NCBI RefSeq assembly: GCF_027257155.1
Contig: NZ_JAPWDU010000001.1
Location: 372,001-436,000, forward strand
Reading direction: 5' to 3'
From: Cerasicoccus sp. TK19100
GTDB lineage: Bacteria; Verrucomicrobiota; Verrucomicrobiia; Opitutales; Cerasicoccaceae
DNA: 64,000 bases
Every line of letters begins with the position of its first letter. Within the stretch, counting starts at the first letter, position 1. The notes beneath the pieces are model-generated. The model was not told the DNA's origin. It saw only the letters and a program-made list of their open reading frames with translations, and ran no database searches. This document shows positions 30,262-47,798 of the stretch, piece by piece. A program made the translations under genes and the position numbers.

Positions 30262-30295
30262 GCGCAACAGTTTGAGCAATGGTGAGTTTGCTCAA
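30262..30295 (+). promoter_or_regulatory. candidate LacI-family operator upstream of PEP-CTERM gene
   Basis: The palindrome-like TTGCGCAACAGTTTGAGCAA lies about 90 nt before the ATG, with an extra half-site TTGCTCAA at 30288-30295. The core CAACAGTTTGAGCA is identical to sequences beside lacI (33553-33566) and upstream of the lyase operon (47781-47798). It is called an operator by recurrence and palindromy only. Confidence 0.6.
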
Positions 30296-30347
30296 TCTCG
30301 TTGTCTATCTATGAATGGACGTCATAGATTAAATTCTTCCACCAAAA

Positions 30348-30366
30348 CAACCCCTAAACCTTATAG
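30348..30366 (+). promoter_or_regulatory. C-rich leader before PEP-CTERM gene
   Basis: AACAACCCCTAAACCTTAT just upstream of the ATG resembles the leaders at 2674-2698 and 60735-60753. The shared core is AACCCCTWA (ACAACCCCTAA here). Confidence 0.35.
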
Positions 30367-30370
30367 AATT

Positions 30371-31663
30371 ATGAAAAACTACTCACCCCTCGCGTTGAAT
30401 CGCTACGCAGTTATCGCCACCGGCGCTTTGCTCCTTATTGCCAACGTCAGCTCCGCTGTTGACCTGACTTGGAATCTCCCCGGCGATGGTAACTGGAACA
30501 CGACCGATTTGAATTGGGACAATGGCGGCTCCAGCGTTGCCTGGTCTGATGGCAACGCCGCCATTTTCGATGGTTTTGCCGCCTCGGCGGATGTGACTTT
30601 GCAAAACGACATTGTTGCCACGAACCTCACGCGCACCAGTGTGAATGGTGATCAGATTTTGCGCCTTTATGACTTCTCCATCGATGTGTCGCAGGTGACG
30701 ATTGTTGGCACGGGTGACATCGACTTGTTCTCCACGCTAACCGGCGATCACGACTTTACGCTGACTTCCGATAACAACGGTGGTCGACTGAACATCAAGA
30801 CCGCAGCGAGCTACACTGGCGACACCTTCTTGCAAAATAACGCCTATTTCCTGTCCGACGGCGTTAGCAACGCATTGCCCGTGACCACGACTTTGAACAT
30901 GACGACGAACACCACGTTCCGCATGCTCAATGTCAATCAGGAGCTGGCTGGTTTGGAAGGCCGCGGCACGATTCGCAGCTCGAACGCCACGCTAACTATC
31001 AACACCAAGACTGGCGCGGTGAATAATTTCAATGCGACGATTCAGGACAACATGAACCTCGTCGTAACTGGTGATGGCTCACAGCGTCTTTTCAGCACGC
31101 TGAACTACACTGGAACCACGACGGTTTCAGGTGGCACGCTCATTCTCGGCAACAACCTAAACAACTCTTCCGCTGTCATCGTAAATGGCGGTGATTTGCA
31201 GAACGATGCTGGTGAAAGCATTACACTCGGTTCGGGTAACTTTTCGATGAGCTCTGGCTCGATCACTCCTGGAGGCGTAGGTGCAGCTGGCACGCTCAAT
31301 GTCGCAACTAATCAAAACTTCACCGTTACCGGTGGCACGCTAAACTTTGATGTGGGCACGGATATGGACCAAATTCTGGGTTCCGGTTCGGGCATCTACA
31401 GCATTGAAGGTGCGACCATTGCACTCAGCCTTGGTGCTGGTTTTGACTACGAGAATAGCTACGAGCTGATCGGCGGTTTCGCCAGCGGCACGTTCGGTGA
31501 TGTAACCGTGACGGGCTATGACACGGCAAACTACGTTGCCAACCTAGACAACTCCGGAGGCGCTTTAAACCTGAGTTTCGCAGCGATTCCAGAACCGTCG
31601 GAGATTGCATTGATCCTTGGTGGTCTTATGGGGGTGCTCGCTTTCATCAAGCGTCGTCGCTAA
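30371..31663 (+). CDS. PEP-CTERM protein with passenger-like repeats
   Basis: A 430-residue exported protein. A long signal peptide (about 1-29, hydrophobic core YAVIATGALLLIANVSSA) is followed by VDLTWNLPGDGNWNTTDLNWDN, a WxGxGDGNWNTxxLNW motif common at the start of autotransporter-like repeats in this phylum. The phrase TLNYTGTTTVSGGTLILGNNLNNSS is the usual passenger-type strand repeat. The end is IPEPSEIALILGGLMG plus KRRR, a PEP-CTERM signal. It has a candidate LacI-family operator upstream and shares orientation with the carbohydrate-binding gene 72 nt downstream, so it probably belongs to the polysaccharide locus. An earlier ATG at 30254 is unlikely, as it would bury the signal peptide. 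Confidence 0.85.
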   Translation: MKNYSPLALNRYAVIATGALLLIANVSSAVDLTWNLPGDGNWNTTDLNWDNGGSSVAWSDGNAAIFDGFAASADVTLQNDIVATNLTRTSVNGDQILRLYDFSIDVSQVTIVGTGDIDLFSTLTGDHDFTLTSDNNGGRLNIKTAASYTGDTFLQNNAYFLSDGVSNALPVTTTLNMTTNTTFRMLNVNQELAGLEGRGTIRSSNATLTINTKTGAVNNFNATIQDNMNLVVTGDGSQRLFSTLNYTGTTTVSGGTLILGNNLNNSSAVIVNGGDLQNDAGESITLGSGNFSMSSGSITPGGVGAAGTLNVATNQNFTVTGGTLNFDVGTDMDQILGSGSGIYSIEGATIALSLGAGFDYENSYELIGGFASGTFGDVTVTGYDTANYVANLDNSGGALNLSFAAIPEPSEIALILGGLMGVLAFIKRRR

Positions 31664-31735
31664 GTCGGATTCATTCTGACCAATAGTTATATAGGGGCCT
31701 TGTTACTGGGGTATTAATATAAAATATTGCTGAAT

Positions 31736-32377
31736 ATGAAATTGCTTAGCTTATTCAATGTTGCGGTGGCGGCGTCTGCTTTCGCAGTCATGACCTGTCA
31801 GGCTGAGAATTTGCTCTACAATGGTGACTTCGAAGAGAGCGAAAGCAATTGGTCATTATTCGCACCGGGGGATGCCTCCGTTAGTGGTTGTGGATGGTCG
31901 ATCACCTTGGAAGATCCCCATGGCGGAACTTCGGCGGCTGTCTTGACTTCGCCCGAGGCCGTTCGCTACGGCATTGTGAACTACGTTAAAGACCAAGTGT
32001 TCATGCCGGGGCAGCGCTACCGGGTGACTGCCTGGGTTAAGGCCGGTGAAGACTTTCAGCCAAGCGTTAGCTCACCCGGCTTTCTGTTGCGCGTCACGAT
32101 GTTTGCCACCGAAGTTGGTTGGGACAACGCGACCGACGGTATTCTCTATTTGGGGGCCAATGACAAGGTAATGCGTGGTAAGGACATCAGTGTATTTGAT
32201 GGCCAGGTGATGCCGACCGAGTGGACGAAATTAGAGGCGGTGTTCGAAGCATCTCCCGATACGGCCAAGATGAATGTCTCGCTGTTCGTTTGGGAAGCCA
32301 GTGGAAGCTTTTATGTAGACGATGTGTCGCTTGAGTTGGTGGATGACTCAACACCTCTCACGGCGAGTATCGAATAA
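31736..32377 (+). CDS. secreted carbohydrate-binding (CBM4/9/22-like) protein
   Basis: A 213-residue protein with a signal peptide (MKLLSLFNVAVAASAFAVMTCQA). The remainder is one galactose-binding-like jelly roll of the CenC type: NLLYNGDFEESESNWSLF at the start, RYRVTAWVKAG in the middle and FYVDDVSLELV at the end. Such domains bind beta-glycans. No catalytic domain is attached, so it acts as a free or surface binding protein. It follows the PEP-CTERM gene and precedes a terminator, in the flank of the polysaccharide locus. The ATG at 31736 is preferred to a TTG at 31727. Confidence 0.8.
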   Translation: MKLLSLFNVAVAASAFAVMTCQAENLLYNGDFEESESNWSLFAPGDASVSGCGWSITLEDPHGGTSAAVLTSPEAVRYGIVNYVKDQVFMPGQRYRVTAWVKAGEDFQPSVSSPGFLLRVTMFATEVGWDNATDGILYLGANDKVMRGKDISVFDGQVMPTEWTKLEAVFEASPDTAKMNVSLFVWEASGSFYVDDVSLELVDDSTPLTASIE

Positions 32378-32434
32378 TTTTTTGAGTATAGTATTGTCAG
32401 ATGGGGGTTGGGGGATCCCCACTGATTTGAAAAG

Positions 32435-32470
32435 GGCCGGCAGCTAGGTTTAGCTTTGCCGGCCTTTTTT
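32435..32470 (+). terminator. rho-independent terminator after CBM gene
   Basis: GGCCGGCA pairs with TGCCGGCC around a TAGGTTTAGC-type loop and is followed by six T residues. The right arm lies inside the 3' end of the convergent lacI gene. Confidence 0.85.
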
Positions 32471-33520
32471 GCGCCGCTCTTTGAGCTGCGATTGTGGTAG
32501 TAAGGTTTGGCCGGGGCGCCAAGTGCCTTCCACGAGCATGCGAATCGGGGTTTCCGGAACGCCGCGCTCGCCGCGCTGCAACATACCCACGAGGAAGTCG
32601 ACGGCGGTTTGCCCGATCAACTGGCCCTTCTGGTCGATGCCGGCGCGGACGTCTTTCTCACCACTTTGGCTGAGCCATGCACAGCCAATGTCTTGGGGAA
32701 CGCTCAGTCCCAGCATCGCTAACATCTCGGTCGTGGGTTCATCCGTATCGCTAATGATGACATCGGGTTTGTGTTTGCCGATCCACTCGACCAGGGCGTC
32801 GCGGTCGCTTTGCTCATCGGGCACGATACAGGCTGGGATGTGCTCTCGCTCAGGGTGGCGTTGTTGGAAGCGCCAATAGCTGGAGGTGTAGGCGTTGTCT
32901 GTCTTACTATCCACATACTCATGCAGGAAGACGCCGATTCGCTGATAGCCGAGTTGAGCGAGCTCTTCCAGCGCGAGACTCATGCTGTGGTATTGGTGAT
33001 TCGTCACCAAGTGGAACAGGTGCGGTGAGATGCTGTAGCCAAATGTGACGGTCGAAAATTGCTCGTAGTCGAGCTCCAGCGGATTGCCGGGGTTTTCAAC
33101 GGGCGGCAGCAACAGGCCTACAATTCCACGGCTGACCAATATCTGTGAAAGCCGTTTGGGGCTTAGTTCGCTATCGCGCAGTTTGAATTCCTCCAAGGTA
33201 TAGCCCAACTGCCGTGCGCGTTCAGAGGCACCGGTGAAGTAATCGTCGAACGTGGGCTGATCGCGCAGTTCATATTGGCCGCCCCAAGTGTCGATCCACG
33301 CAATCGTTGATTTGTAGTGAACCGGCAATTTGGTTTTGCGATAGGCGTTGAGCGCCGACAGGGCAGGGTCCGGTACGTAGCCCATTTTCTGCGCCAGCTC
33401 TTTGATTTTTTTGCGAACGGCTTGGGAGACGCGGGGATGATCGCGAAGTGCCAGACTGACGGTGCTATAGTGGACATCTGCGGCTTCCGCAATATCGCGG
33501 AGCGTTACCCGTGTATTCAT
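32450..33520 (-). CDS. LacI family transcriptional regulator
   Basis: A 356-residue repressor. The N-terminal helix-turn-helix is TLRDIAEAADVHYSTVSLALRDHPRVS, followed by the hinge helix VRKKIKELAQKMGYVPDPALSALNAYRK. The rest is a periplasmic-binding-protein-like sensor domain (PDVIISDTDEPTTEMLAMLG). The start at 33520 is set by the HTH; the open frame continues upstream to 33799 but those 93 residues have no likeness and cross the divergent gene. It is divergent from the 2-hydroxyacid dehydrogenase operon with only 91 nt between, where an operator-like site lies. It probably senses a sugar derived from the polymer degraded by its neighbours. Confidence 0.93.
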   Translation of the reverse strand: MNTRVTLRDIAEAADVHYSTVSLALRDHPRVSQAVRKKIKELAQKMGYVPDPALSALNAYRKTKLPVHYKSTIAWIDTWGGQYELRDQPTFDDYFTGASERARQLGYTLEEFKLRDSELSPKRLSQILVSRGIVGLLLPPVENPGNPLELDYEQFSTVTFGYSISPHLFHLVTNHQYHSMSLALEELAQLGYQRIGVFLHEYVDSKTDNAYTSSYWRFQQRHPEREHIPACIVPDEQSDRDALVEWIGKHKPDVIISDTDEPTTEMLAMLGLSVPQDIGCAWLSQSGEKDVRAGIDQKGQLIGQTAVDFLVGMLQRGERGVPETPIRMLVEGTWRPGQTLLPQSQLKERRKKGRQS

Positions 33521-33551
33521 GGTTTTATTGGAAGCCTTACCGAGAAGAGTG

Positions 33552-33566
33552 TCAACAGTTTGAGCA
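33552..33566 (+). promoter_or_regulatory. candidate LacI-family operator in the divergent promoter
   Basis: TCAACAGTTTGAGCA lies 31 nt from the lacI start and 45 nt from the dehydrogenase start. The reverse complement, TGCTCAAACTGTTGA, matches 15 of the 18 bases of the perfect palindrome at 47781-47798. The placement suits autoregulation and control of the plus-strand operon. Confidence 0.6.
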
Positions 33567-33611
33567 TTGATTGGCTCGTTCCTGAATCCTGGCGCGGTAA
33601 CAATGGCGTAA

Positions 33612-34658
33612 ATGCCCCAGGAATCTGAATCGCAGACGACTTTACTTAACCCAATCGACTCGGCCAACACGCGTCGTATTCTCTGTGCATTAACGGATGA
33701 TGAGCTCGCGCTTTTTTTTCCAAAAGGATTGCGCGTTGCGGGGGCAGAGATTCGTCGATTTGATCTTGAATCCAACACGGAAGATTTCCGCGGCAGCATT
33801 CTGGAATTCGAGCCGGAGGTGATTGTCAGCTGCTGGAATACACCGTTGCTCGAAGAAGATTGGCGGGCAGATTTTCCGTTTTTGCGCTACGTTTGCCATG
33901 CCAGTGGCTCGGTGCGTAGTCTGTTGCCGCGCTCATACATCGAGCATGGTCTGGTGGTTACGAATTGGGGGACACTGGTCGCGGCAAACGTGGCCGAGCA
34001 TGCGCTGCTGTTAATTTTATCCGGTCTGCGTCGTTCATCGGAATGGCCCAGCGTGATCTCTGGTGAGCGTGAATGGCAACCTTCGCCGATTGTTACGCGC
34101 ACACTGTTTGGTAAGCGCGTCGGTTTGCATGGTATGGGCAATGTCGCGCAGAACCTGATTCGTTTGCTGCAACCATTTGACGTGTGCGTTTTTGCCTATT
34201 CTGAAGGCGCGCCTGAGAAACTATATGGTGAGCATGGTGCCCAACGTTGCGACAGCTTGGAGGCGCTCTTTGCGCAAAGCGACATCCTGGTGGAGTGCGA
34301 GGCGCTCAACGAGCAAACGCAGGGCGTGGTGACCCGGGCAGTGCTTGAGCAATTGCCGGAGGGAGCCTTGTTTGTCAACGTCGGGCGTGGCGCGGTAGTT
34401 GATGAAAAAGCGTTAGCCTCGCTGGCTTCGGAAGGCCGTCTCGACGTGGCGTTGGATGTTTACCAGGAAGACCCGATTGAGCCTGATTCGCCGCTCCATC
34501 AGGTGGCGGATGCCGTGTTGTCTCCCCATATTGCCGGGCCGACTTCTGATCAATTCGCCCGCTGTGGTGAACAGGCATTACGCAACCTTACCGCCTATCT
34601 GAAAGGTGAGCCATTGGAAGCAGTGGTTACCCTTGAAATATACGACCGCGCGACATAA
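33612..34658 (+). CDS. D-isomer-specific 2-hydroxyacid dehydrogenase
   Basis: A 348-residue NAD(P)-dependent oxidoreductase. The Rossmann motif is VGLHGMGNVAQNLI, preceded by the GTLVAANVAEHALLLILSGLRR block. The catalytic Arg-Glu-His set fits NVGRGAVVDE (Arg), VYQEDPIEPDSPL (Glu) and LSPHIAGPT (His). It would reduce or oxidise a 2-keto/2-hydroxy acid, perhaps one arising from uronic-acid breakdown in this locus. It is the first gene of a plus-strand run with the lyase (60 nt away) and symporter and has an operator-like site upstream. No signal peptide; cytoplasmic. Substrate inferred only from context. Confidence 0.87.
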   Translation: MPQESESQTTLLNPIDSANTRRILCALTDDELALFFPKGLRVAGAEIRRFDLESNTEDFRGSILEFEPEVIVSCWNTPLLEEDWRADFPFLRYVCHASGSVRSLLPRSYIEHGLVVTNWGTLVAANVAEHALLLILSGLRRSSEWPSVISGEREWQPSPIVTRTLFGKRVGLHGMGNVAQNLIRLLQPFDVCVFAYSEGAPEKLYGEHGAQRCDSLEALFAQSDILVECEALNEQTQGVVTRAVLEQLPEGALFVNVGRGAVVDEKALASLASEGRLDVALDVYQEDPIEPDSPLHQVADAVLSPHIAGPTSDQFARCGEQALRNLTAYLKGEPLEAVVTLEIYDRAT

Positions 34659-34718: not shown

Positions 34719-36986
34719 ATGAAATTTGGTTTCCGAATTTTCTCGTGCTTTTGTTTCCTAAGCCTGACTGCTTGGGGCAGTAGCGAGGTAGGATACGTCA
34801 CCCCTGAAGCGGTGGGGGAGTCATTGCGTGAGCATGCCGCGCAGTGGGAGTCGGCTGTGCAGTCACATGAGCCGCGACTATTTTATGATAATGAAAAATG
34901 GTTGTCCATCGCATCCGGCATTGAGTCCATGGCGGGGGCGCGCGCGGATTACCGTGAGCGCTTTTTTGCAGAAGCTGATCGATTGCTGAAGGAGCCCGTC
35001 CCGCAGTATTTGCCACCGGAAAAAGTGGCTGGCACCCGTGGCGATGCGCGCACACTTTACAGCGCCCGGGAAGAGCTCTGGCAGCGCGATGTGGGCAACC
35101 AAATTTATGGCTACGCCTTTGCCGTGCGCTTACGTCCGGACAACGAAAGTTATCGCGCGCGCCTACACGATCTCGTGATGGCTGCGACGCAATACCAGAC
35201 TTGGGGGCGGCACGATCCGCCGATGGGGGCGAACGCCGACTTGGCGGCCGGGCACATTGGCCGAGGCATTGCATTGGCCTACGACTGGCACCGCGATTTG
35301 TTCTCCGACGACGAGCGGGCGAAGATACGGCAGACGATGGCCCGCCGCATGCCGAATCTGTTGCGCGCGCTTTACGGCGATGCCTATTGGGCGCGTGGTT
35401 ACGAGGAGAACCATAACCACGTTAGCGTCACAGCGCTGGCTTACAGCGGTATCGCGTTTTATGACGAGATTCCCTCGGCCCCGATTTGGCTGGCGGCAGC
35501 GCGCTTGAATTTCATCAACGTCGGTCGTAGCATGGCGGCCGATGGCAGCTCGGTGGAGGGCGTCTCTTACTGGACTTACGGGATGGAATACATCTTGCAG
35601 TTCATCGAAGCGACGCGTCCAATCATCGATTCGGAGACGCTTTACGATTTGCCATTTTTGCAGAATGCGGCGAGCTACCGACTGATGGCGTCGACGTCCG
35701 GGCTGGGGGGTAACTTACTTTGGGGCGATGCTGTGGCGCGCGATTGGCATGGCCCGCATCACATTCTTTTTGGCCTGGCCTCGGTATACGATGATCCAGA
35801 CGCGGCCTACCTCGCGGAGAATATCGCTTATCCGCTCAATGGCGGGCTCGACCAGTATGCACTGCAAATGCTTTGGGCCAGCTTGGCACCGACGCCGGAG
35901 CACGCACCGGAACAGCTGGACCATCGCCTGACGGTTAACGACATGATAACCACCCGCAGCGGATGGGCCGAAGATGATTACCTGCTCAGCATGAAGGCCG
36001 GCTATACGAACCGCAACCACAGCCACCTGGATGCTGGCGCGCTGACGCTGGCCTTCGGGGATGATTGGCTGCTGACCGCGCCGGGCTACGGCAAGGGCGG
36101 CGGCGAGAGTAATTTCTGGCAACGTCACGGCCCGCGCTGGGAGTATTTTTCCAACGCCACCGAGTCGCATGCTACGCTTTTGATAAATGGCAAGAACCAG
36201 CGTTTCGATAACGACGCCAAGGCGGTGGTGACATCATTTTTATCGGCCCCGGATTGGAGTTGGGCAACGGCGGACCTGGCGGGTGCGTATAATGACGTCA
36301 GTGACGTGCAGCGCGCGGTGCTGCACCACCGCAGCGAGTACATCCTTGTGTTCGATTACATCCGTGCGCCTTCACCGGTAGCTGTAGAGTGGCTGGCGCA
36401 CTTCCGCTATGAGCCGACTGCATCAGATGGCGGGCTACTCATCAATGGCAAGAAAGGTGATTTGTTTGTCCGGTCGCTTGTCCCAGCGGAGAAGTTTTCA
36501 CCGCGCGAACCAACGAAAGAAAAAGTCGACGTAAAGATGGAACGCCACCTCGGTTATGCCATTGCGCAAGAAGGCAGCGACTTGTCGTTTGCCACGCTGC
36601 TTCAACCCATTGCCAAGGGCAGTGCCGTTCAACCGCTCGAAACCAAAGTGATCGCTAGTGGGCCGGACTATTGTCAGCTCACGGTAAGCAATGGCGAGTG
36701 GACGGATATGGTTGCGTGGCAACCTGAGAAGCCGGAGCAGCCCATCATGTTGGGTGCTGCAAACCTGCAGGCCAAAGCGGTTGCCTTGCGCACCATCGAT
36801 GGCGCTGTAAGTTCCCTTATCACCATGGGCGCGCAGCAGATTTCGTTTGCCGGGTTTGAATTCCAATCCAAGGAACCCCGCGACTTTGCCGCCCGGTTGG
36901 GCAGTGATGGCGTATGGGAAATTACGGCGATTGATGATCGTGATGAGCCGGTAGTTCTGACCGATGGAATGCGTGCCGGCCAATAG
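34719..36986 (+). CDS. heparinase II/III-like polysaccharide lyase
   Basis: A 755-residue exported protein. Residues 1-20 form a signal peptide (FRIFSCFCFLSLTAWG). An alpha/alpha toroid covers about residues 60-390, with YEENHNHVSVTALAYSG and SVEGVSYWTYGMEYILQF. The heparinase II/III C-terminal beta-sheet domain begins near MITTRSGWAEDDYLLSMKAG and includes NRNHSHLDAGALTLAFGDDWLL, the most conserved part of the family. Members eliminate uronate linkages in alginate, heparin-like or other acidic glycans. The polymer cannot be told from sequence. It sits between the dehydrogenase and the symporter, 24 nt from the latter, so it most likely forms one transcript with them. Confidence 0.85.
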   Translation: MKFGFRIFSCFCFLSLTAWGSSEVGYVTPEAVGESLREHAAQWESAVQSHEPRLFYDNEKWLSIASGIESMAGARADYRERFFAEADRLLKEPVPQYLPPEKVAGTRGDARTLYSAREELWQRDVGNQIYGYAFAVRLRPDNESYRARLHDLVMAATQYQTWGRHDPPMGANADLAAGHIGRGIALAYDWHRDLFSDDERAKIRQTMARRMPNLLRALYGDAYWARGYEENHNHVSVTALAYSGIAFYDEIPSAPIWLAAARLNFINVGRSMAADGSSVEGVSYWTYGMEYILQFIEATRPIIDSETLYDLPFLQNAASYRLMASTSGLGGNLLWGDAVARDWHGPHHILFGLASVYDDPDAAYLAENIAYPLNGGLDQYALQMLWASLAPTPEHAPEQLDHRLTVNDMITTRSGWAEDDYLLSMKAGYTNRNHSHLDAGALTLAFGDDWLLTAPGYGKGGGESNFWQRHGPRWEYFSNATESHATLLINGKNQRFDNDAKAVVTSFLSAPDWSWATADLAGAYNDVSDVQRAVLHHRSEYILVFDYIRAPSPVAVEWLAHFRYEPTASDGGLLINGKKGDLFVRSLVPAEKFSPREPTKEKVDVKMERHLGYAIAQEGSDLSFATLLQPIAKGSAVQPLETKVIASGPDYCQLTVSNGEWTDMVAWQPEKPEQPIMLGAANLQAKAVALRTIDGAVSSLITMGAQQISFAGFEFQSKEPRDFAARLGSDGVWEITAIDDRDEPVVLTDGMRAGQ

Positions 36987-38790: not shown

Positions 38791-39504
38791 CTAATTCGTC
38801 GGCTTCGGCGCGCGTTCGATAAAGTTACGCACGAGCAATTCCTCGGTCACCGGACGGTCTTCTGATGGCTCTTGATCAACGAGGACAATCGTTGAGCGCG
38901 AATTGGGAATCAGCACTTGCGGAGCACTGACGCGTAGGCTCCACTTTTCTTTGTCGAGCACGGCGGCCTGTAGCCACACTTGCAATTTGTTGGAGTAAGG
39001 GAACTGGTGAGACTCCGCGGTTTCGAGCTCGGCCACTTCATCGCCTACTTTGATCATCGCCAGGCGCGGCGAATAATTAAACACGCGCATGAAGCCCGTT
39101 GGGTGAATTTCCCAAGAGTCGTCGACGACTTTGATGTGCACTTCGTCGGTCTTCAGCGGGTTGACATGAAACAAGATTAAATACGGTCCGGTGTCATCCA
39201 ACGTGAAGTCGGCGATGTCGAGCTTCTGTGGTGGATCACCGGGCTTTTCGCCGGGAACCTCACGGTAGATATCGACGCGCTGGCCGATGTCGGCCTTATA
39301 CGGCGCGGAGAATCCTGTGCTGCCCGCCATGAGGCTTTTAGCTTCGCCGTCGTAATCGTAAAATACGTTAGACAGGGTTTTCCCCAGGGCCAGGGTGCGA
39401 AAGCTGGCCGAGCTGTTTGTGGTATCTTGCGCCTGAGCGCTGACGCCTGCCAGTGTGCAAAGCAGGCCGCAGAGGCATGATTTTAAACCAAGGTTGGGGC
39501 GCAT
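38791..39504 (-). CDS. secreted protein of unknown function, coupled to the giant prepilin
   Basis: A 237-residue exported protein. A signal peptide (LKSCLCGLLCTLAGVSAQA) is followed by a beta-rich mature part (ASFRTLALGKTLSNVFYDYDGE; SWEIHPTGFMRVFNYSPRLAMIK). I do not recognise a family. The start is the ATG at 39504, whose A is the last base of the prepilin TAA stop (TAATG); an upstream ATG at 39528 lies within the prepilin gene. Similar small exported proteins stand beside Verru_Chthon-type prepilins, but any shared structure is an inference. It is the last gene of the minus-strand operon. Confidence 0.6.
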   Translation of the reverse strand: MRPNLGLKSCLCGLLCTLAGVSAQAQDTTNSSASFRTLALGKTLSNVFYDYDGEAKSLMAGSTGFSAPYKADIGQRVDIYREVPGEKPGDPPQKLDIADFTLDDTGPYLILFHVNPLKTDEVHIKVVDDSWEIHPTGFMRVFNYSPRLAMIKVGDEVAELETAESHQFPYSNKLQVWLQAAVLDKEKWSLRVSAPQVLIPNSRSTIVLVDQEPSEDRPVTEELLVRNFIERAPKPTN

Positions 39505-42500
39505 TAGATTTCTTCTGGAGTGAGCCATCGAAACGAGATGATATTAAATTTACGACCGAACAACCGGTTTTGCTGATTCAAGTTGTTCAAGTTGTCTTCG
39601 GGTGAATTCGCGTCGGCGTCGATGTAATCAATTTGCCGTTGGACGACGGCTTCACACCAAGCGCGGCTTTCCGTCTCTTGGGTAAGTGGATTGATTGCCT
39701 CACCATAAGTACGGATGACGAACGTGTCCGAGCGCGCGGTTAAGGCAGAGCCAATGGCGGACAACACATCGGCCTGCGTGAGGAATTGTGGCGCGAAGGC
39801 AGACGTCGATCCATAAGGAACTTCGCCATCGGGGGTGCCTTCGTAGCCCTGCATTAGCTCCAAGTCGAATTTGTTGCCCCGGTAGTTGGGCAGATCTGCG
39901 GATGGGTGGTGGAACGGGTTGGTGCCGGAATTCCCGTAGGCAAGATCCTCACCTCTGTTTATTGCGGGCGTGCCGGACATGGTGGCGTCGATGGCAGCCT
40001 GCAGCGCGCCTTTGAAGCGTTCGTCGATAACCGTATCGGGATTGTCCGTCAGGCGACGATTGATGAAGTCAGCCAACGATACAAACGGGCCGCGGTTGCG
40101 GATTTCGGTGACGATATTTTTCGCTAGTTCGGCGATTTGCTCATCCGTTAATTGGCGATAGCCTTGCCAGGCCCAAGCCTGCGAGTTATCGACATCGGGT
40201 GCCTCTGTCGGGCGGCTGAAGCGGGGGAGGGCGGAGCCGAGTTCCACGGCGGATGATTCATCGGCAACCGGATCATATGGCAGTTGGTTGAGCCCGCCCA
40301 GAATGGCGCGCCATGCTTGCTCCGAAGTACTGTTGATATTAAAGCCGCCCTTGAGGCTGAGCCCGGAGGCGGCGAGTTCGGCATCGCGTAAATCCTCATC
40401 GTTCAAGCGACCATTTTCCGCGATACGCGGATTGGGCAACTCGGACGGAATGGGGCTTACATTGGTGTCAGTGGATATGCCGGTGCCTTCGTAGGGAATG
40501 GTCGAGACGAAGTAGCGATCCCACAGCGCTCGATTGAGCAGCCAGGATATGTCGTAGTAGGAGGTGATTTTATCACTCGGCGTGACTAGCCCGCTGGCAC
40601 CATCGTAAACGACTCGCACTTCACCGCGGTTATCGAGGAAATGGTAGTCCGCCAGACTATTGCCAATGGGGTAGGCCGGATAAGTGTTGATGTAAGATAA
40701 GTTAGCGTGCTGCAACTGCCCCAGTGACATCAGCGGCATATTTTCGGAGCGAAATTCAAACAACGTAGCATCGACGATGTCCGTGACCGAATCCAAGCTA
40801 GTTCCGGCGGAAGCGCGTTTGCCGGACGTTTCGGCGTTAAAAGTCATCCATGGGCTTTCCATACCTCCGCCTGCGCTGAAGTTCGACGGGTTCACGCTGG
40901 AGTCACCCTCGGACTCTGTGATGTAGAGTGAGCGGGGGTTGCCCTGTGCGATCCAGCGCACGTCCGGAAAGATGGGGGACGAAGGAGGTGCCGCCGCAAA
41001 GTTTCTTTCCACATACATCACCGAGCTGGGCTGCACTAGGTAGTCATCGAGCGGTGCGGGGCTTTGCAGGAACTCATTGCGGTTGTTGTGGAGGTTGTTA
41101 TTACTGTCTTGGGCAGGTGAGAGTCGGGTAATGGTCTGGTGCCACTGCTTATCGTTGTTGTCCGAGGTGTCGTAGCCACGTGGGGCTTGCTGCATGGCTT
41201 CACCGAAGTAAACCGCGACTTCCCCGCCGGACATGCCGAAGGAGTCCGTGACGGGGTCGACCATGCGCGAGCCGCTTACGCGGAATTGCGCGTCGACCTC
41301 GTCAGCTTCGAACCTCGCGGTGTTTGAACCGAAGTCCAGATAGACATGGCCCGCTGCGTATAGGCCGTTGGTGAGGATGTTGTTCGCCGGGCCATTGCGG
41401 TCGGCATCGTAGGCCACGCCGCTTTGGTCATTTTGCAGCGTAAAGATCAAGCTAGCACCCGGCGGTATTTCGGGGCAATCGATTTGGAAGCGCACGTAGG
41501 ATTCGGTCGGGTATTGGCTCAGCGAGGCACCGGAGCCGAAGTTAACGGCTTCCTTATGCTCCCATTCCCCCGTGCCATCGTTGTAAACCTGAAGCTGATA
41601 CCAGGCGCGATAGCGGCGGTTAATGCCTATTTCATAGGTGTGCGCGTTGATTGGCGTGGTGTAGGGATTCCACAACACTACCAGCGGCATCAGGGCGAGG
41701 CGAATGGGGGAGCCGGGGACCCGGGCGCTTGGTGCATAATAGCGCATGCCGAGAGAAAAATAGGTTAACACAGGCGCCACACCGACATCAGTGGTTGTGG
41801 GCACGCGCGGCTCCAGTCCGCCGGTGTTGGGCACCGTGGTTTGCACAAAAGAACGCAGAGCTCCCCAGGTGGGGACGGCAAAGGTGTCGTTGGCGTCGTC
41901 AGTATCCGGCGTAAAGATGTAATCGGTGTCGGCGGGCGTGGTGACCTCGGTGGTGAGTAATGCTGAGAGGTCTTTTTTTAATCCGCCAGCATAGCTGTCT
42001 ACGAGGAGAGATTCCGAATGAATAGTGATCGCATGCGGATTGGCCCGCATGGCGTTGATCATGGCATCGGAATCATTGGTCGCCAGAAAGGAGAGCTCGT
42101 TGAGGGAGTTCAGCAGCGGCAACGCACTGGAGTTTGGGTTGAAATTATCGGCAATGAGCGTATCCGGGTCAAACCGGTCGGCACCAGCCTTGTCAATGAG
42201 TTCGATAGCCGAGCGCTGTGCGGCAACGAATGCCTTGTCGTAATTGTTGGCATCGGCCATATCGAGTGTCGCGTTGGCTTTGGCCCCTTCATCGCCAATC
42301 CACCATGCGTAGCGCCCGGTGGTAGTGGCAGCATCGCCGTCCTCAATATCAACCAGCGGGGCAGCAACGAAATCTTCAGTGGATGAGGCCGTGCCCGCAC
42401 CCATGAGGAGCACCTGCGTGTCATTCGGATCGGGCTTGGCGTTGACCTGAGTCAGGTCGACTGCGCTCGTTGGTAAGAAGGAAAATGCATTGGGAGCATT

Positions 42501-43001
42501 GAGGATATGCCCGTCGGCGGCGACGTCGTTTTCCGGGGTGAAGTTGACGTTCTCATTGCCGCTGACCAGCCAGTTTAGGAGCACTGCCTGCGAGCCCTTG
42601 GCGTTGGCATAGCTGGTAATGGTTTCGGCAACCGTTGATGGCTTCTCGGCATAGTCGATGGGGGCAGCGTTGCCATAAACGCCGATCCAGTTGCCGTTGG
42701 CGGTGGTGGTGTTCGCCAGGGTCGCGTCGATGTTGGCGCTGGCGGTGGTGCGCTGGTCGGGGCCCGCATATTTCTGCAATTGGCCGATGGCGACGTTGAG
42801 CGCGAACAGGGCGTTTTGTCGGGCAATGGATGACTGCTTTTTCTGGGTGGAAAGCTCGGTCTCGACCCGGGTCAGTGTTGTTAAAGAAATTAACAACAGG
42901 ACCATCATGGCCATGAGGAGGATCGCAATCACCAACGCGAAACCGCTGTGGCGAGCGGTGCGGGCAGCGGCCCGCTTTCGGAGTTGGTTTGGGTTTTGCA
43001 T
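39504..43001 (-). CDS. Verru_Chthon cassette protein A-like giant prepilin
   Basis: A 1165-residue protein with a type III (prepilin) signal: a basic leader of 20 residues ending HSG, then the helix FALVIAILLMAMMVLLLISLTTL. There is no glutamate at mature position 5, as in GspK/PilX-type minor pilins. The C-terminal block with FVSLADFINRRL, TQADVLSAIGSALTARSDTFVIRTYGEA and RAWCEAVVQRQ recalls the Verru_Chthon cassette A family, seen in Verrucomicrobiota. It would be processed by a prepilin peptidase and take part in a pseudopilus. Unusually it lies within an operon for polysaccharide breakdown, between esterase and secreted protein. The other cassette members (B, C, D) are not here. Confidence 0.75.
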   Translation of the reverse strand: MQNPNQLRKRAAARTARHSGFALVIAILLMAMMVLLLISLTTLTRVETELSTQKKQSSIARQNALFALNVAIGQLQKYAGPDQRTTASANIDATLANTTTANGNWIGVYGNAAPIDYAEKPSTVAETITSYANAKGSQAVLLNWLVSGNENVNFTPENDVAADGHILNAPNAFSFLPTSAVDLTQVNAKPDPNDTQVLLMGAGTASSTEDFVAAPLVDIEDGDAATTTGRYAWWIGDEGAKANATLDMADANNYDKAFVAAQRSAIELIDKAGADRFDPDTLIADNFNPNSSALPLLNSLNELSFLATNDSDAMINAMRANPHAITIHSESLLVDSYAGGLKKDLSALLTTEVTTPADTDYIFTPDTDDANDTFAVPTWGALRSFVQTTVPNTGGLEPRVPTTTDVGVAPVLTYFSLGMRYYAPSARVPGSPIRLALMPLVVLWNPYTTPINAHTYEIGINRRYRAWYQLQVYNDGTGEWEHKEAVNFGSGASLSQYPTESYVRFQIDCPEIPPGASLIFTLQNDQSGVAYDADRNGPANNILTNGLYAAGHVYLDFGSNTARFEADEVDAQFRVSGSRMVDPVTDSFGMSGGEVAVYFGEAMQQAPRGYDTSDNNDKQWHQTITRLSPAQDSNNNLHNNRNEFLQSPAPLDDYLVQPSSVMYVERNFAAAPPSSPIFPDVRWIAQGNPRSLYITESEGDSSVNPSNFSAGGGMESPWMTFNAETSGKRASAGTSLDSVTDIVDATLFEFRSENMPLMSLGQLQHANLSYINTYPAYPIGNSLADYHFLDNRGEVRVVYDGASGLVTPSDKITSYYDISWLLNRALWDRYFVSTIPYEGTGISTDTNVSPIPSELPNPRIAENGRLNDEDLRDAELAASGLSLKGGFNINSTSEQAWRAILGGLNQLPYDPVADESSAVELGSALPRFSRPTEAPDVDNSQAWAWQGYRQLTDEQIAELAKNIVTEIRNRGPFVSLADFINRRLTDNPDTVIDERFKGALQAAIDATMSGTPAINRGEDLAYGNSGTNPFHHPSADLPNYRGNKFDLELMQGYEGTPDGEVPYGSTSAFAPQFLTQADVLSAIGSALTARSDTFVIRTYGEAINPLTQETESRAWCEAVVQRQIDYIDADANSPEDNLNNLNQQNRLFGRKFNIISFRWLTPEEI

Positions 43002-43044
43002 AGAGTGAAGGTCTTATTGGTTATAGACTTTATCGGCGCTAATG

Positions 43045-44388
43045 TCACTTCTTCAAGTGCTCCATGATGAAGCCCTCGTATTCCCGACGTAGCTGGGCAG
43101 TCGGAACGGACATTTGATGATGCCCCTGGTTGGGCACGCTGATGATGCGCTTCGGTGAAGGCAGTTGGTTATAGGCGGCAAAAATTCCGGGCGGCGGGCA
43201 AGTCGTGTCGATCAGGCCTACCGACAAGAGCATATCGGCCTTGACGCGAGCGCTGAAGTAGACGGCGTCAAAGTAGCGCATCGTGTTGACGATGGCGTCG
43301 CCCTCGGGCGTACCGGCTTCGACTTTGCCCAAGCCGGGCCAGCCGGAGGCATCGCCTGAGATGTCACACAGGCCGGGCACGATGGCAACTGCGGCGGACA
43401 CTCGCTCGTCGAGTCCGGCGGCAGCGATTACCTGGCCACCGCCCTGGCTGATGCCATAGGCGATCAGGTGCTGGCCATCCCACTCCGGCTGAGCGCAGAG
43501 GAAGTCGATCGCACGCATCAGGCGTAGGAACATGCCGAGGAAATAAAAATCGTCACGGCTTTGATTGCCCAGATAGCGGTAGTCCTTCAGCTCACCTTTG
43601 GCGAGCTCGTCGTAGTATGATTGCGGTTGTCCGTTGAGCATGCCGTGGGCGTTGATGTCGATCACGATGGCGTTGTATTTTTCGGCATAGGACAAGGTTT
43701 GCACGAGGCTGGAGCGACACCAACCGCCATTGACGCCGGCAGCGTGAAATAGGATAATTGCCGGGGAACTGCCGGGCGCGGCGTCTTTTGGCGCGCTGTA
43801 GTAGCCGCGCACGGGTTCCACATCGAGGCAGGGAATTTCGACATTGGCGTAGGTAAAGCGTTCGGCGATGCGATTGATCTTATTGCGGTGGTCCGGGTTT
43901 TTGGCTTCCAGCTCAAATTGCTCCGGAGTCAGTGGCTCAATGACCGGACTCGCCGGCGAAGCGGCAAGACGCTCCTTTTGTGCGGCCCAGAACGCATCGA
44001 AATCTTCTGGTGCCGGATGCGCGGGTTGAAACTTATCCGTGCCAAAGACAACGCCAGCTTCCGCAGCCGGGCGCTTCACGTCGGGCAGGCGCACTGAGCA
44101 ACGGAACCACCCTAACTCCGGCGGTGCGAAGCTAATGGCTTGATCGTCCAATTGGGAATCTAGCGGCTGCGTGGTGATGGTGTCCCAACGGTTTTGCCAA
44201 ATGCGGTATTCCGCGCTATCACCAATGGCTGCTTCGTCGCGCCGGACCTGAAAGACTGCGGTCTCGCCCTCGGCGTAAATGCCGTCAGCATGGTTAACGC
44301 TTAAAGTGTATTGCGACTTCGCTGCTTGAACCGAGCCCCACGAAAGGGTGACGAGTAGGGCGGCGAGGATGGTTGTTTTGAATTGCAT
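43045..44388 (-). CDS. acetylxylan-esterase-like (AXE1/CE7) hydrolase
   Basis: A 447-residue exported alpha/beta hydrolase. The signal peptide is MQFKTTILAALLVTLSWGSVQA, which fixes the start at 44388 rather than an earlier in-frame ATG at 44475. The AXE1-like core shows AIILFHAAGVNGGW, nucleophile elbow AYGISQGGG (Ser), SVGLIDTTCPPPGIFAAYNQL (Asp) and NQGHHQM (His). CE7 enzymes remove acetyl groups from xylan or other acetylated sugars. The N-terminal 130 residues form an extra beta domain. The start overlaps the stop of the trehalase-like gene (TAATG). It lies in the middle of the minus-strand polysaccharide operon. Confidence 0.82.
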   Translation of the reverse strand: MQFKTTILAALLVTLSWGSVQAAKSQYTLSVNHADGIYAEGETAVFQVRRDEAAIGDSAEYRIWQNRWDTITTQPLDSQLDDQAISFAPPELGWFRCSVRLPDVKRPAAEAGVVFGTDKFQPAHPAPEDFDAFWAAQKERLAASPASPVIEPLTPEQFELEAKNPDHRNKINRIAERFTYANVEIPCLDVEPVRGYYSAPKDAAPGSSPAIILFHAAGVNGGWCRSSLVQTLSYAEKYNAIVIDINAHGMLNGQPQSYYDELAKGELKDYRYLGNQSRDDFYFLGMFLRLMRAIDFLCAQPEWDGQHLIAYGISQGGGQVIAAAGLDERVSAAVAIVPGLCDISGDASGWPGLGKVEAGTPEGDAIVNTMRYFDAVYFSARVKADMLLSVGLIDTTCPPPGIFAAYNQLPSPKRIISVPNQGHHQMSVPTAQLRREYEGFIMEHLKK

Positions 44389-45716
44389 TACAGTGTTATC
44401 GAAAAGTTGCTTTCCGCCATGTTTTCGGAGGATTGCAGGTAGGCGACGGCGTCCACGAAAACGCCTGCAGTCCAACCCATCATGGCCGGTGGTTCTGCTG
44501 ATCCATTGGCCGGTCGTTCCGTTGCGAGATTCTCGGGGTTGATCAGGTAGCCAGCTTCTTCAACGGTGCGGTGCGTGCCGTCGATTACGTTGTATTTCTC
44601 CCACAAGTCGCCGGTTTCCTCGAAGGTTTGAACGACACTGGTTATGTATTTAGCGGCAATGCGACGGGCATCGTCGTGATAGCCATAGCGGGCCAGCGCG
44701 CGGTAAACCAGATGCTGAACGCAGGCCCACGCATTGGGATAGTCCCACTGCTGAGGCTGTTTTTGCGGAACGCCGCTTGCGACGCCAAATGCATGCTCCA
44801 ACTGCGGCAATACATTTCTCACGACGGCATCTGCCTGCGCCTCAGTTGCCAACCCGGCCCAGAGTGGCTGGAAGGCGGCAGCGGTTGGCTGTGCGCCGGG
44901 CGTGCCTTGCGCGAAGTCGTAGTCGGTGAAGCATTGGAGGTCTTCGTTCCAGCAAAACTTTTCAATCAATATCTGCCGGTCAGCTGCTTTTTGGTGCCAT
45001 TGCCCGACCTCTTCCTCGGGAGCCCATTGCGCCAGAAGCTTTTCATAAAGCCACAGGTTGGCGTTGAGGTCGATCGGGCAAAACTCCGGGCAGCGATGAT
45101 CAAAGCGGGAATTAAAGTCCCAGCCCGATTCGCATTCCGCGAGGGCCAGCCCGGTTTCGGTTAGGCAGTCCTCCGGCTGGCGATGAGCCAAGCCCAGGCG
45201 GTATTTGATGGTTTCAAAAAAGGTGAGCAACTCGTCCCGGCTGGCGTGTTGCCCATAGCGCGAAAGACCGGTGGGGGAGAGCCGCTGCGTCGTCCAGAAT
45301 GCATATTCACGCTGAATCAGCGGATAAGCTTCAACGGTGAGCGTCGGGTGGTTCAGCCGTCGGGCTACGACATCCACGAGCGGTGCCAGATAGGGTGGCT
45401 GGGAGCGTGTCAGGTAGTAGGTGCGATTACCATTGGGGACGAAGCCAAAGCGATCCACCTGCGCCAGCAGATTACGGGTGTTGCTTAGCGCTAAATCGTC
45501 AAAACCGGTTTCGAGCAGACCCAATGTCGTGAAATAGGTGTCCCAGTAATAGAGCTCTTGGAAGGCCCCTTTACGGCAGGGAATCGTATACGGATGTGGC
45601 AGCCCGATCAGCGTGCCGTCGTCCTCGGGGCAATGGCGCACGGTGTCCTCCCAATGTCCGGCGATGAAATCGCGGACTTGGTTAATGCGTGCTTCACTGA
45701 TGAAAATTGAGCTCAT
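44388..45716 (-). CDS. trehalase-like glycoside hydrolase (GH37-type fold)
   Basis: A 442-residue alpha/alpha-barrel hydrolase with no signal peptide. Trehalase-type blocks are visible: GAFQELYYWDTYFTTLGLL (signature 1 position), ECESGWDFNSRF (acidic region holding the putative general acid), and QQWDYPNAWACVQH (signature 2 position), with EKYNVIDG near the base. Real trehalase is possible, but in this locus it may cleave an imported oligosaccharide. It lies 9 nt after the lyase gene, and its stop overlaps the esterase start, so translation is likely coupled. Confidence 0.8.
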   Translation of the reverse strand: MSSIFISEARINQVRDFIAGHWEDTVRHCPEDDGTLIGLPHPYTIPCRKGAFQELYYWDTYFTTLGLLETGFDDLALSNTRNLLAQVDRFGFVPNGNRTYYLTRSQPPYLAPLVDVVARRLNHPTLTVEAYPLIQREYAFWTTQRLSPTGLSRYGQHASRDELLTFFETIKYRLGLAHRQPEDCLTETGLALAECESGWDFNSRFDHRCPEFCPIDLNANLWLYEKLLAQWAPEEEVGQWHQKAADRQILIEKFCWNEDLQCFTDYDFAQGTPGAQPTAAAFQPLWAGLATEAQADAVVRNVLPQLEHAFGVASGVPQKQPQQWDYPNAWACVQHLVYRALARYGYHDDARRIAAKYITSVVQTFEETGDLWEKYNVIDGTHRTVEEAGYLINPENLATERPANGSAEPPAMMGWTAGVFVDAVAYLQSSENMAESNFSITL

Positions 45717-45725
45717 GCCAAACCT

Positions 45726-47720
45726 TTACGGGTTAAGAATCTCCGCTGAATCGACTATGACATCGTCGATATATAGGTGATAGCTCGCCGGCGTATCGCT
45801 GGAGCTAAAATAAACACGGTCAATGAAACTGACCGGATTGCGTAAGGCGGCACCTTGCAGGCATAGTGTTCCGTTAAGATAGATGTCGGCCAGGTCGGAG
45901 CCGGGATTGATAATCGCTTCGACCTGATGCCAGGTATTGGCCGGGATGGCACCGAGCACTATATCGCTGCCGCCTGATTGCCGATAAAGCAGGTTACCAG
46001 CGCCATCCGTGACGAGCTCGATCGCGGCGCTGTCTCCGGCTAGCACTTTCATGGCGTGTCCGTCGACAAGGCCGTTTTCACGGAACTCCCACGATACGGT
46101 CACGGGATTACTTTGCGGCACAAAGCTTTTCCAAAGACTTGGGTAGCCGCTGGTGTTTCCATCCCAGAGTTGAATGCATTTATCAGTGGCGCTGGTGATC
46201 TCACGCACGGCAACATTGGTGCTGCTGTCCAGTTTGTAAGTCCAGCTTTCCGGGCGGCTGTTGGTCGCCAATTCGTCAAAGGTCTCATGAAGCGCCGGTG
46301 TCAGGTTGGAAATAGCGATGTCATTCACGTAAAGGTGGTAGGTGTAGGACTCATCGCTTGTGCCAAACAAGATGCCGTCGAAGTAGTTTGCCGATGTTTG
46401 AAACGTAGCGCCGCTAAGGCGACGCACACCGTCGACATATACATCCGCGTGGCCTTTTGCCGGATCCACGACGAGATCGACGTCATACCATGCTCCCGTG
46501 GGAACGGCTTGCAGCACGTGATCACCATTGGCATCGCGATAGACGAGATTGCCACTGAGCGTGAGCAACTCAATCGCCGCATCGTTACCCGAGAGCAGCA
46601 CCATGTGATGCCCCTCGCCAAGCAATGATCCGCCGCCAGTTTGTTTGAAACTGAAGTGGGTGTTGAACGGTGCCGTGAGCTGGGGAATGCTGCGCCATGC
46701 CTCAATTTTTCCCAACGGATTACCGTCCCAAAACTGCATAGATTTATCAGCGGTACTGGGCGTCTCGCGGACGAAGACATTGGTCGTGGAATCGTTGTCC
46801 ACACTCCAACCAGTAGGCCAGGAGCCAGTGGTCATCGTGTCGTAGGTCTCGTTGAAAATTACATCGCCAAGGGTGGGCTGATGGTAGCCGGTTCCGTAGT
46901 CGCTCGGCTTGACCAGATTGAAGGCATTGGCGGGATTGCCGACGATGTAGGCAATGTCGTCGTAGAAAATTTCGCGCGTTTCGTTAGTGTCATAGTGAGT
47001 GTGGTCCCAGCAATACTGACCCCATTTTACATACGCGCCGTGGGTCATTCCCTCGTCAGTGTTCCAGGCACCGTTGCCGAGATTGATGCCGGTGTATTCG
47101 ACCGTGGGCGCGGATTCAGGAGCGCCGTCATACCATGCGAGCAGAATACCCGTTTCATTGCGGGAAAGTTTGCAGTAGAGGATGAAATCGTGCCACTCGC
47201 CCTTGGTCAGGCTGGGAGCGATCGTGGAATAAACGGTAACGGTTTTGCCGCCATTTCCGTTGCCATAGGCACCCTCCAGTATGAGCGCGCCCGTTGCCTC
47301 AACACCGACGGTGATCGTGATGTTTGTCGCGGGCAGGCTTGAGTGCCACGCATGAATCTGGCCTAAGACAACGGCTTTGCCCGGAGTGGGAAAGCTCTCT
47401 GGCGCATACAGGCTAAAGCCAAACCAGCCTTCGCCCGTGATGCGCTCCAAGTGGAAGCCGGAGGAGCCCTCGACGCCTTTACTCGAGCGATTGCCGTTAT
47501 AGAACTCGGAGTTCCAGACCAGGCGGTGCACTTTGTTGCCAGAGCGCGGGGAGAAGCCGATTGGTGTGATGATCTCTGAAATATTGCCAGAGATAACCTC
47601 TACATTAAAAGGAGACAGACTGACGTCCTCAAAGTCTTCATCAATAATTTGCGCATTGGCATAAATAAAACTGAGGGCGAACGATAAGCTAAGCCTAAGG
47701 ATTGCGGGGATGTATTTCAT
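45726..47720 (-). CDS. secreted polysaccharide lyase with two LamG-like repeats
   Basis: A 664-residue exported protein. The signal peptide MKYIPAILRLSLSFALSFIYANA sets the start at 47720; an ATG at 47744 is less suitable. Residues to about 270 resemble the heparin-lyase/glucuronan-lyase beta-jelly-roll family (PF14099-like): GNKVHRLVWNSEF, VVLGQIHAWH, KGEWHDFILYCKLS, GAYVKWGQYCW. Two similar lectin-like units follow (about 285-470 and 475-660), each beginning ETFDELxTxSxPxxW and ending YHLYVDDI. The substrate is an acidic glycan or glycosaminoglycan by family; the exact polymer is unknown. It is the first gene of the minus-strand operon and has a perfect operator-like palindrome upstream. 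Confidence 0.72.
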   Translation of the reverse strand: MKYIPAILRLSLSFALSFIYANAQIIDEDFEDVSLSPFNVEVISGNISEIITPIGFSPRSGNKVHRLVWNSEFYNGNRSSKGVEGSSGFHLERITGEGWFGFSLYAPESFPTPGKAVVLGQIHAWHSSLPATNITITVGVEATGALILEGAYGNGNGGKTVTVYSTIAPSLTKGEWHDFILYCKLSRNETGILLAWYDGAPESAPTVEYTGINLGNGAWNTDEGMTHGAYVKWGQYCWDHTHYDTNETREIFYDDIAYIVGNPANAFNLVKPSDYGTGYHQPTLGDVIFNETYDTMTTGSWPTGWSVDNDSTTNVFVRETPSTADKSMQFWDGNPLGKIEAWRSIPQLTAPFNTHFSFKQTGGGSLLGEGHHMVLLSGNDAAIELLTLSGNLVYRDANGDHVLQAVPTGAWYDVDLVVDPAKGHADVYVDGVRRLSGATFQTSANYFDGILFGTSDESYTYHLYVNDIAISNLTPALHETFDELATNSRPESWTYKLDSSTNVAVREITSATDKCIQLWDGNTSGYPSLWKSFVPQSNPVTVSWEFRENGLVDGHAMKVLAGDSAAIELVTDGAGNLLYRQSGGSDIVLGAIPANTWHQVEAIINPGSDLADIYLNGTLCLQGAALRNPVSFIDRVYFSSSDTPASYHLYIDDVIVDSAEILNP

Positions 47721-47780
47721 GGGGATCGGGGATACTTCCACCACCTAATTACAAACCCTCTTTAGCGGCAATATTCGGCC

Positions 47781-47798
47781 TGCTCAAACTGTTGAGCA
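47781..47798 (-). promoter_or_regulatory. candidate LacI-family operator upstream of the lyase operon
   Basis: TGCTCAAACTGTTGAGCA is a perfect 7+4+7 inverted repeat 60 nt upstream of the lyase start codon. Near-identical sites lie at 33552 and 30262; relative to the gene they serve, all three read CAACAGTTTGAGCA. Confidence 0.65.

Follow-up and report, generated by a model that had tools for sequence, protein, structure and literature searches.

A predicted LacI-type polysaccharide regulon in Cerasicoccus sp. TK19100 with non-CG operators upstream of a TTG hexamer

Genes of the locus

The DNA analysed here is a stretch of 64,000 nucleotides from Cerasicoccus sp. TK19100 (contig NZ_JAPWDU010000001.1, positions 372,001 to 436,000), called the window below and numbered from its first letter. 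Between positions 30261 and 47798 it holds the gene of a LacI-family regulator (lacI), ten further genes and three near-identical operator-like sites, which together resemble a regulon for polysaccharide use. Other genomes of the order Opitutales were used for comparison: G000 is TK19100 itself, G001, G002 and G003 are congeners, G076 belongs to a second family and G057 to a third. The genes of the locus are as follows.

30371..31663, plus strand: PEP-CTERM-like surface protein ending in IPEPSEIALILGGLMGVLAFIKRRR; NCBIfam PEP-CTERM subfamilies match below cut-off, no Pfam match
31736..32377, plus strand: carbohydrate-binding module (CBM) protein, CBM_4_9 (PF02018, E 2.3e-10)
32450..33520, minus strand: LacI-family regulator, recognition helix VHYSTVSLALR, hinge PDPALSALNAYR with Leu51 and Leu54 in GalR numbering (PF00356, E 8.5e-13)
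33612..34658, plus strand: D-2-hydroxyacid dehydrogenase family protein (PF02826, E 8.7e-38)
34719..36986, plus strand: heparinase II/III-type polysaccharide lyase (PF07940)
37011..38780, plus strand: sodium:solute symporter (PF00474, E 8.2e-30)
38791..39528, minus strand: small protein, last gene of the lyase unit; no Pfam match, homologues at the same place in G002, G003 and G076
39504..43001, minus strand: giant GspK-like pseudopilin of 1165 amino acids; N-terminal Verru_Chthon_A and GspK matches below cut-off, no Pfam match
43045..44397, minus strand: acetyl-xylan-esterase family protein, AXE1 (PF05448, E 1.1e-33)
44388..45716, minus strand: trehalase-family glycosidase (PF01204, E 7.8e-79)
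45726..47720, minus strand: polysaccharide lyase with a laminin-G-like domain (domain match to PF14099)

Judged by strand and spacing, the genes other than lacI fall into three transcription units. The first contains the PEP-CTERM-like and CBM_4_9 genes. The second, also on the plus strand, is made up of the dehydrogenase, the heparinase-type lyase and the symporter. The third is a five-gene minus-strand unit (PF14099 lyase, trehalase-family protein, AXE1 protein, giant pseudopilin, small protein). No Pfam match to a SusC/SusD pair, as in Bacteroidetes-type polysaccharide utilization loci, was found among the 11 genes.

The regulator has a LacI-type helix-turn-helix (PF00356, 48.3 bits against a cut-off of 27) and a below-cut-off match to a periplasmic-binding-protein-like sensor domain (PF13377, 24.6 bits against 26.5). 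The heparinase-type lyase finds its best sequence matches among solved structures in a PL35 chondroitinase (9o3q) and then in an oligoalginate lyase (3a0o). A uronic-acid-containing polymer is therefore the likely substrate of the predicted regulon. For the PF14099 lyase a search of solved structures at E 0.001 gave no hit. In the first protein of the locus a C-terminal PEP motif, a transmembrane stretch and an Arg run are visible by eye, and PF07589 does not match it. Genome-wide, PF07589 picks out 114 PEP-CTERM proteins or segments when E values up to 1 are admitted, and most of these exceed the cut-off, yet this protein is not among them. The structure model of the giant pseudopilin contains a helix at residues 20-78 and is poor overall (mean predicted local distance difference test score 37.9).

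Three operator-like sites

30261..30278, plus strand: operator 1, TGCGCAACAGTTTGAGCA, in front of the PEP-CTERM-like and CBM genes; no difference in the 14-bp core among three species
33549..33566, plus strand: operator 2, GTGTCAACAGTTTGAGCA, between lacI and the dehydrogenase operon
47781..47798, minus strand: operator 3, TGCTCAACAGTTTGAGCA as read toward the lyase unit

In a pattern scan the core CAACAGTTTGAGCA was found exactly at 30265-30278 (plus), 33553-33566 (plus) and 47781-47794 (minus). These are its only exact copies in the whole 5,068,619-base genome, so the three near-identical sites of the initial annotation were confirmed. The longer 18-mer, TGCTCAAACTGTTGAGCA, is exact solely at 47781; the copy at 30261 differs at one position and that at 33549 at three, in both cases within the less conserved arm. 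It consists of perfect 7-bp arms (TGCTCAA/TTGAGCA) around a non-palindromic 4-bp centre (ACTG/CAGT). The sequence at 47781-47798 had been described as a perfect palindrome, which holds for the arms and fails in the centre. An operator of the LacI family is expected to be an even palindrome of 16-22 bp, and these sites, with 18 bp and 7-bp arms, fall inside that range. Two further statements of the annotation stood. All three sites face the genes they serve in the same orientation (at the shared site, relative to the dehydrogenase), and the centre is unlike the usual CG: it is AG in 12/12 sites of G000, G002, G003 and G076. Operator 2 ends 28 bp before the ATG of lacI, which runs on the minus strand, with the dehydrogenase on the plus strand.

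Allowing one mismatch, the 14-mer has four further copies in the genome, all within open frames of at least 570 codons; a reversed control pattern has three matches at up to one mismatch. A sequence-only model was trained on nine sites of three genomes, operators 1-3 included, so its scores are circular for those sites and informative on the lack of others. The three operators rank top in the genome with 19.3-21.5 bits and the next place reaches 13.4, so that the genome scan suggested at annotation turned up no further site of equal quality. A chance repeat as the origin of the three sites was rejected on the genome counts, the mismatch counts and the open-frame positions. A wider regulon was also rejected as a candidate: in the four Cerasicoccus genomes 12 of the 13 matches outside the locus with at most one mismatch fall in open frames of at least 100 codons, and the remaining one (G002, C13:46988) does not.

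Between operator 3 and a tRNA-Pro gene (48488-48565), the interval 47800-48480 has no clear gene and its open reading frames are short or overlapping.

Conservation of the regulator and its sites

The locus is syntenic in G002 and G003, and a site is present at 9/9 orthologous positions over three genomes, G000 included. Seven of the nine are exact; the site of the lyase unit has two mismatches in G002 and one in G003. Aligned across the three species, the upstream regions (some coding sequence included) are identical at 31%, 54% and 25% of positions, and the core is identical throughout at sites 1 and 2. In G076 the LacI is 71% identical. A site with 3 mismatches in 15 lies upstream of lacI/dehydrogenase there, one without mismatch upstream of the lyase, and one that matches the full 18-mer without mismatch upstream of a LamG gene. 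The LamG protein has a PEP-CTERM-like end and scores just under the Pfam PEP-CTERM cut-off (20.0 against 20.7 bits). In the more distant G057 (LacI 45% identical) related TCAA-N4-TTGA sites, chosen partly by eye, precede a pseudopilin, the GspK-like gene and the lyase, and their centres are other than CG. Among the genomes of the order drawn, LacI at E below 1e-90 was found in 5/177 and the lyase at E below 1e-60 in 5/273, and these are the same five genomes.

It is highly improbable that the sites serve another regulator and that the adjoining LacI is a bystander. Four genomes, from two families, have both the site and the LacI orthologue, the third family has related sites, and the site precedes the regulator's own gene in G000, G002, G003 and G076. 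G001, by comparison, is without an orthologue (best 39%) and without the lyase, and its single exact 14-mer sits inside an open frame. Because site, LacI orthologue and locus are conserved together, the regulon and its regulator are supported as strongly as comparison can support them. Comparison thus gives good support to a single predicted LacI-type regulon whose 11 genes are lacI and those of the three transcription units, and with it to the earlier proposal that a PEP-CTERM-like protein and a prepilin-like protein would fall under one such regulator.

The predicted system resembles the local sugar regulons of the LacI family surveyed by Ravcheev et al. (2014, PMC4052901) in that the regulator lies beside its targets, its own gene has a site, and the site is an even palindrome. 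The sites lie 28-92 bp before start codons, and the survey puts most at 30-140 bp. The word Verrucomicrobi is absent from the main text of that survey, and a literature search found no study of LacI operators in Verrucomicrobiota among the titles and abstract openings listed.

A fixed distance to a TTG hexamer

Downstream of the operators, and in one case inside an operator, the following promoter-like elements were recorded.

30288..30293, plus strand: TTGCTC, probable -35-like hexamer 9 bp past operator 1; TTG at this offset in 3/3 species
47766..47771, minus strand: TTGCCG, probable -35-like hexamer 9 bp past operator 3; TTG in 5/5 genomes
33576..33581, plus strand: TCGTTC, 9 bp past operator 2, with AACAAT 17 bp further; both conserved in 3/3 congeners
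33550..33555, minus strand: TTGACA inside operator 2, facing lacI, a possible lacI -35; in 3/3 Cerasicoccus genomes with the orthologue, absent from G076

In 9/16 sites exactly 9 bp lie between the downstream edge of the operator and a TTG, and no other offset reaches 5/16. The nine are all three PEP-CTERM promoters, the G076 LamG promoter and all five lyase promoters. When the 12 sites outside G057 are averaged by promoter class, a sigma70-like score peaks at offset 9 (11.31; next 8.71; mean 6.36). Two groups of sites count against a universal spacing. The dehydrogenase promoters have no TTG at the offset in 4/4 cases (TCGTTC in three; TGGTTC, without AACAAT, in G076), and it is missing in 3/4 G057 sites.

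If AACAAT in the stretch 33599-33612 is a -10 element, the first base of the dehydrogenase transcript would fall on or beside the ATG, and the transcript would be leaderless. AACAAT and AAATGCCCC are conserved in three species.

The TTG might also be the second half-site of an extended operator and not a promoter element, which would be compatible with either sign of regulation. At operator 1 the hexamer does overlap an additional half-site TGCTCAA, seen at 30288-30295 in G000 and partly kept in G002. The same TTG is, however, common to regulators with different half-sites, and in the pooled set of LacI genes described below a -10-like score is highest 16-17 bp further on, although this peak is modest. 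We regard this reading as quite improbable.

A second, paralogous regulon

A paralogous LacI locus is present in G000, G001, G002 and G003, with two GCAACTAGTTGC-type sites per genome at up to four mismatches. In G000 it lies on contig 2 at about 717900-726000. One site is upstream of a PEP-CTERM gene, whose protein scores above the cut-off (27.2 against 20.7 bits), and the other lies between a glycoside hydrolase (GH)-like gene, with a weak GH113 match below cut-off, and a divergent gene. The locus in G000 and G002 also contains a giant GspK-like gene.

TTG is found at offset 9 in 3/4 PEP-CTERM sites. At the four sites between the GH-like and divergent genes it is present in 4/4 in the direction of the GH-like gene and in 1/4 in the direction of the divergent one. 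Further GCAATCTATTGC sites, near a giant pseudopilin gene in G000 and another gene in G001, have TTG at the same distance. The pattern TGCNCAANNNNTTGNGCA occurs at five places in G000 and its reversed control at none: two are operators 1 and 3 and one belongs to the second regulon. The other two, on contig 10, are inside open frames and were taken as chance matches.

The same spacing beside other LacI genes

Offset 9 was derived from the two regulons and then tried on LacI genes outside both. In the first set, whose loci outside G000 were chosen by likeness to the window's regulator, gapped palindromes were followed by TTG at this offset 9, 14 and 18 times with rising looseness of the search (at most 4, 5 and 9 at other distances). 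A replicate set from G057 and G076, chosen by Pfam with best hits first, gave 3 and 4 occurrences, where other distances averaged 0.26 and 0.56 and never exceeded 2. In the pooled 226 LacI genes, 20 sites at 19 genes were found at the middle setting (mean 2.38, maximum elsewhere 5). The stricter setting gave 13 against 1.54 and the looser one 26 against 5.36 (maximum 10). Among all combinations of trimer and distance tested in the pooled set, TTG at offset 9 ranked highest (20; next 10). The -10-like score of the pooled sites is at its top with spacers of 16 and 17 (3.65 and 3.2, against 1.9-3.1 elsewhere). A recheck of the set for leftover LacIs of either regulon left the counts unchanged.

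The signal has its weak points. At the loosest setting G057 and G076 give 4 against a mean of 1.24, with a maximum of 4 elsewhere, that is, without a distinct peak. A control on 257 kb of genomic DNA gave 11 gapped palindromes with TTG at the offset, while other distances averaged 3.2 and reached 8 at most; this control is not independent of the finding, because 9/11 lie in the loci of the two regulons. With a looser setting the control gave 8 against 5.15 (maximum 12 elsewhere), 7/8 of them again in these loci. Alignments upstream of orthologous LacI genes revealed few clear operators. An AAC-W-GTT core counted 12 times against 4.1 is partly carried by orthologues and was not used.

Mode of regulation

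In textbooks LacI regulators are repressors, and searches for their operators usually look for palindromes with a CG centre. An ordinary repressor that blocks its operators is the less likely reading here, because the fixed 9-bp distance, seen in both regulons and beside other LacI genes, agrees with a regulator that touches RNA polymerase from its upstream side. The spacing suggests that LacI-type proteins with this layout act from a fixed spot before the promoter and not by simple blocking, and an activator is the more likely form of such action.

In the proposed mechanism the operator is an 18-bp even pseudo-palindrome (arms TGCTCAA and TTGAGCA around CAGT) whose centre is oriented and differs from CG. 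In the PEP-CTERM and lyase promoters exactly 9 bp separate its edge from the TTG hexamer downstream, which by standard promoter numbering would put the operator centre near -54, with one subunit of the bound dimer toward RNA polymerase. Transcription would be raised when a breakdown product of the polymer (probably one containing uronic acid) is present. At the shared site the regulator would also cover the TTGACA that may serve lacI; the position of this hexamer in the less conserved arm of site 2 would allow autorepression. On balance, we consider it probable that operators 1-3 are the binding sites of the LacI protein encoded at 32450-33520 and that they control one 11-gene polysaccharide-use regulon from fixed upstream positions like those of activator sites.

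A precedent for this placement is CcpA. In Bacillus this LacI-family protein activates from sites upstream of the -35 element (ackA, pta, ilvB), with an effect that depends on the face of the helix (PMC3463425), and the predicted dimer here would be placed similarly. CcpA is global and HPr-dependent, whereas the regulators considered here are local and share one fixed spacing.

Activation has evidence against it as well. LacI-family proteins mostly repress. The majority of LacI-family regulators bind DNA without ligand (PMC4052901), and repression from a position upstream of the promoter also occurs, as in the lev operon (PMC3463425). The same protein and sites could thus form a repressor that contacts or hinders RNA polymerase from upstream, or loops between sites, until a sugar releases it. 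Three operators within 17.5 kb would permit looping, and TTGACA within operator 2 suggests that lacI is repressed by its own product. Yet blocking needs no fixed distance, and the 9-bp spacing recurs in two regulons and beside other LacI genes; the -35-like hexamers, moreover, share little beyond TTG, as would be expected of activator-dependent promoters. Repression by this route appears unlikely, though it is the most serious rival to activation.

Operator centre and hinge residue 51

Even palindromes were reported for 1251 of 1303 LacI regulators, 1173 with a CG centre, 49 with another central pair and 29 degenerate (PMC4052901). Given the 1173 CG-centred cases, other centres are uncommon but known, and the regulon described here differs from most of that survey in this respect. 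Camas et al. (2010, PMC2978694) linked Ala51 and Leu54 of the hinge to the central CG and called exceptions rare. In the window's regulator Leu54 is kept (PDPALSALNAYR) and the CG-linked Ala51 is replaced by Leu; the operator is even, with an asymmetric centre. Leu54 is present in 142/166 LacIs examined and in 28/42 of G000. Ala51 was found in 10/42 LacIs of G000 and in 11/166 of a set picked partly by likeness to this LacI, 10 of these 11 being from G000.

Palindromes with 6-bp arms were counted next to these genes. Beside 155 non-Ala51 LacI genes, those with a gap of 2 numbered 24 against 8.0 in shuffled sequence, and those without a gap, at 8 against 7.4, were not in excess. Stretches taken at random from the genome, for the most part coding, have 9.9 gap-2 palindromes per 155, and the chance of at least 24 is 5e-5. 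Beside the 11 Ala51 LacIs, gapless palindromes numbered 3 against 0.5. A CG centre occurs in 1 of the 24 non-Ala51 gap-2 palindromes and in 3 of 3 of the Ala51 group, one of them terminator-like. The replicate families gave 8 against 3.5 for gap 2 and 4 against 3.6 for gap 0; 25/70 of that set have no residue at alignment position 51.

Several counts weaken a rule that ties residue 51 to the centre. In the non-Ala51 group gaps of 4, 6 and 8 are raised too, if less (16, 13 and 15 against about 8), and the Ala51 LacIs are also raised at gap 2 (3 against 0.6) and gap 6 (3 against 0.5). The excess in the replicate families is larger at gaps of 4, 6 and 8 (12, 9 and 9 against about 3.3) than at gap 2, so that hairpins may add to the signal there. 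The centre is not self-complementary in 21/24 cases, which alone says little because 18 are expected by chance. In the second regulon the centre is TA in 7/8 sites, which is non-CG and also self-complementary.

When the 20 pooled sites are oriented with the promoter downstream, 13 have a centre with G and no C and one has a centre with C and no G, with six uninformative (CG in three, GC, TA, AA). This bias (two-sided binomial about 0.002) was noticed after the fact. Because the pooled centres are biased and the AG centre of the present operators conforms, the orientation may be a rule rather than an accident. In view of the gap-2 and gapless counts beside the non-Ala51 genes, a non-CG centre may also be lineage-wide.

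From these data a broader and more tentative proposal can be made, to which we give slightly less than even credence. Many LacIs of the Opitutales would form a class of their own, with Leu, Val, Ile or Met at position 51, a non-CG and often oriented operator centre 9 bp upstream of the -35 element, and activation by contact with RNA polymerase; one of them would switch on a module with a PEP-CTERM surface protein and a giant pseudopilin. If an altered operator and a fixed promoter distance do hold for many LacI regulators of the order, searches for CG palindromes would miss these sugar regulons, and the reason for the CG centre could be tested directly through the single hinge residue Ala51. 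The combination of 18-bp palindrome, 9 bp and TTG could also serve to read polysaccharide regulons in marine Verrucomicrobiota.

Giant pseudopilins near LacI genes

Through the predicted regulons, PEP-CTERM proteins and giant pseudopilins become linked to loci with the look of substrate control. A link between a pseudopilin and a substrate is not in itself new, because in the verrucomicrobial Verruconatronum a pseudopilin is over-expressed during growth on alginate (PMC13274419). The pseudopilin of that cluster is PulG-like, whereas the one described here is giant and GspK-like, and a regulator and an operator are predicted for it. The main text of the Verruconatronum paper contains neither LacI nor PEP-CTERM.

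G000 has 42 LacI matches and 23 giant GspK-like genes, including the one at 39504-43001. The 23 genes result from our merging of 49 match segments, with the end of one gene assumed, and the frames of the family span 968-1520 codons. For ten of the 23 a LacI gene is no more than 5 kb away. Random placement would give 2.6, and none of 5000 trials gave as many as ten. At 3, 8 and 10 kb the counts are 7, 11 and 11 against 1.8, 3.7 and 4.3 expected. This proximity is no proof of control, because sugar-use loci cluster. The giant pseudopilin of the window lies 6.1 kb from lacI.

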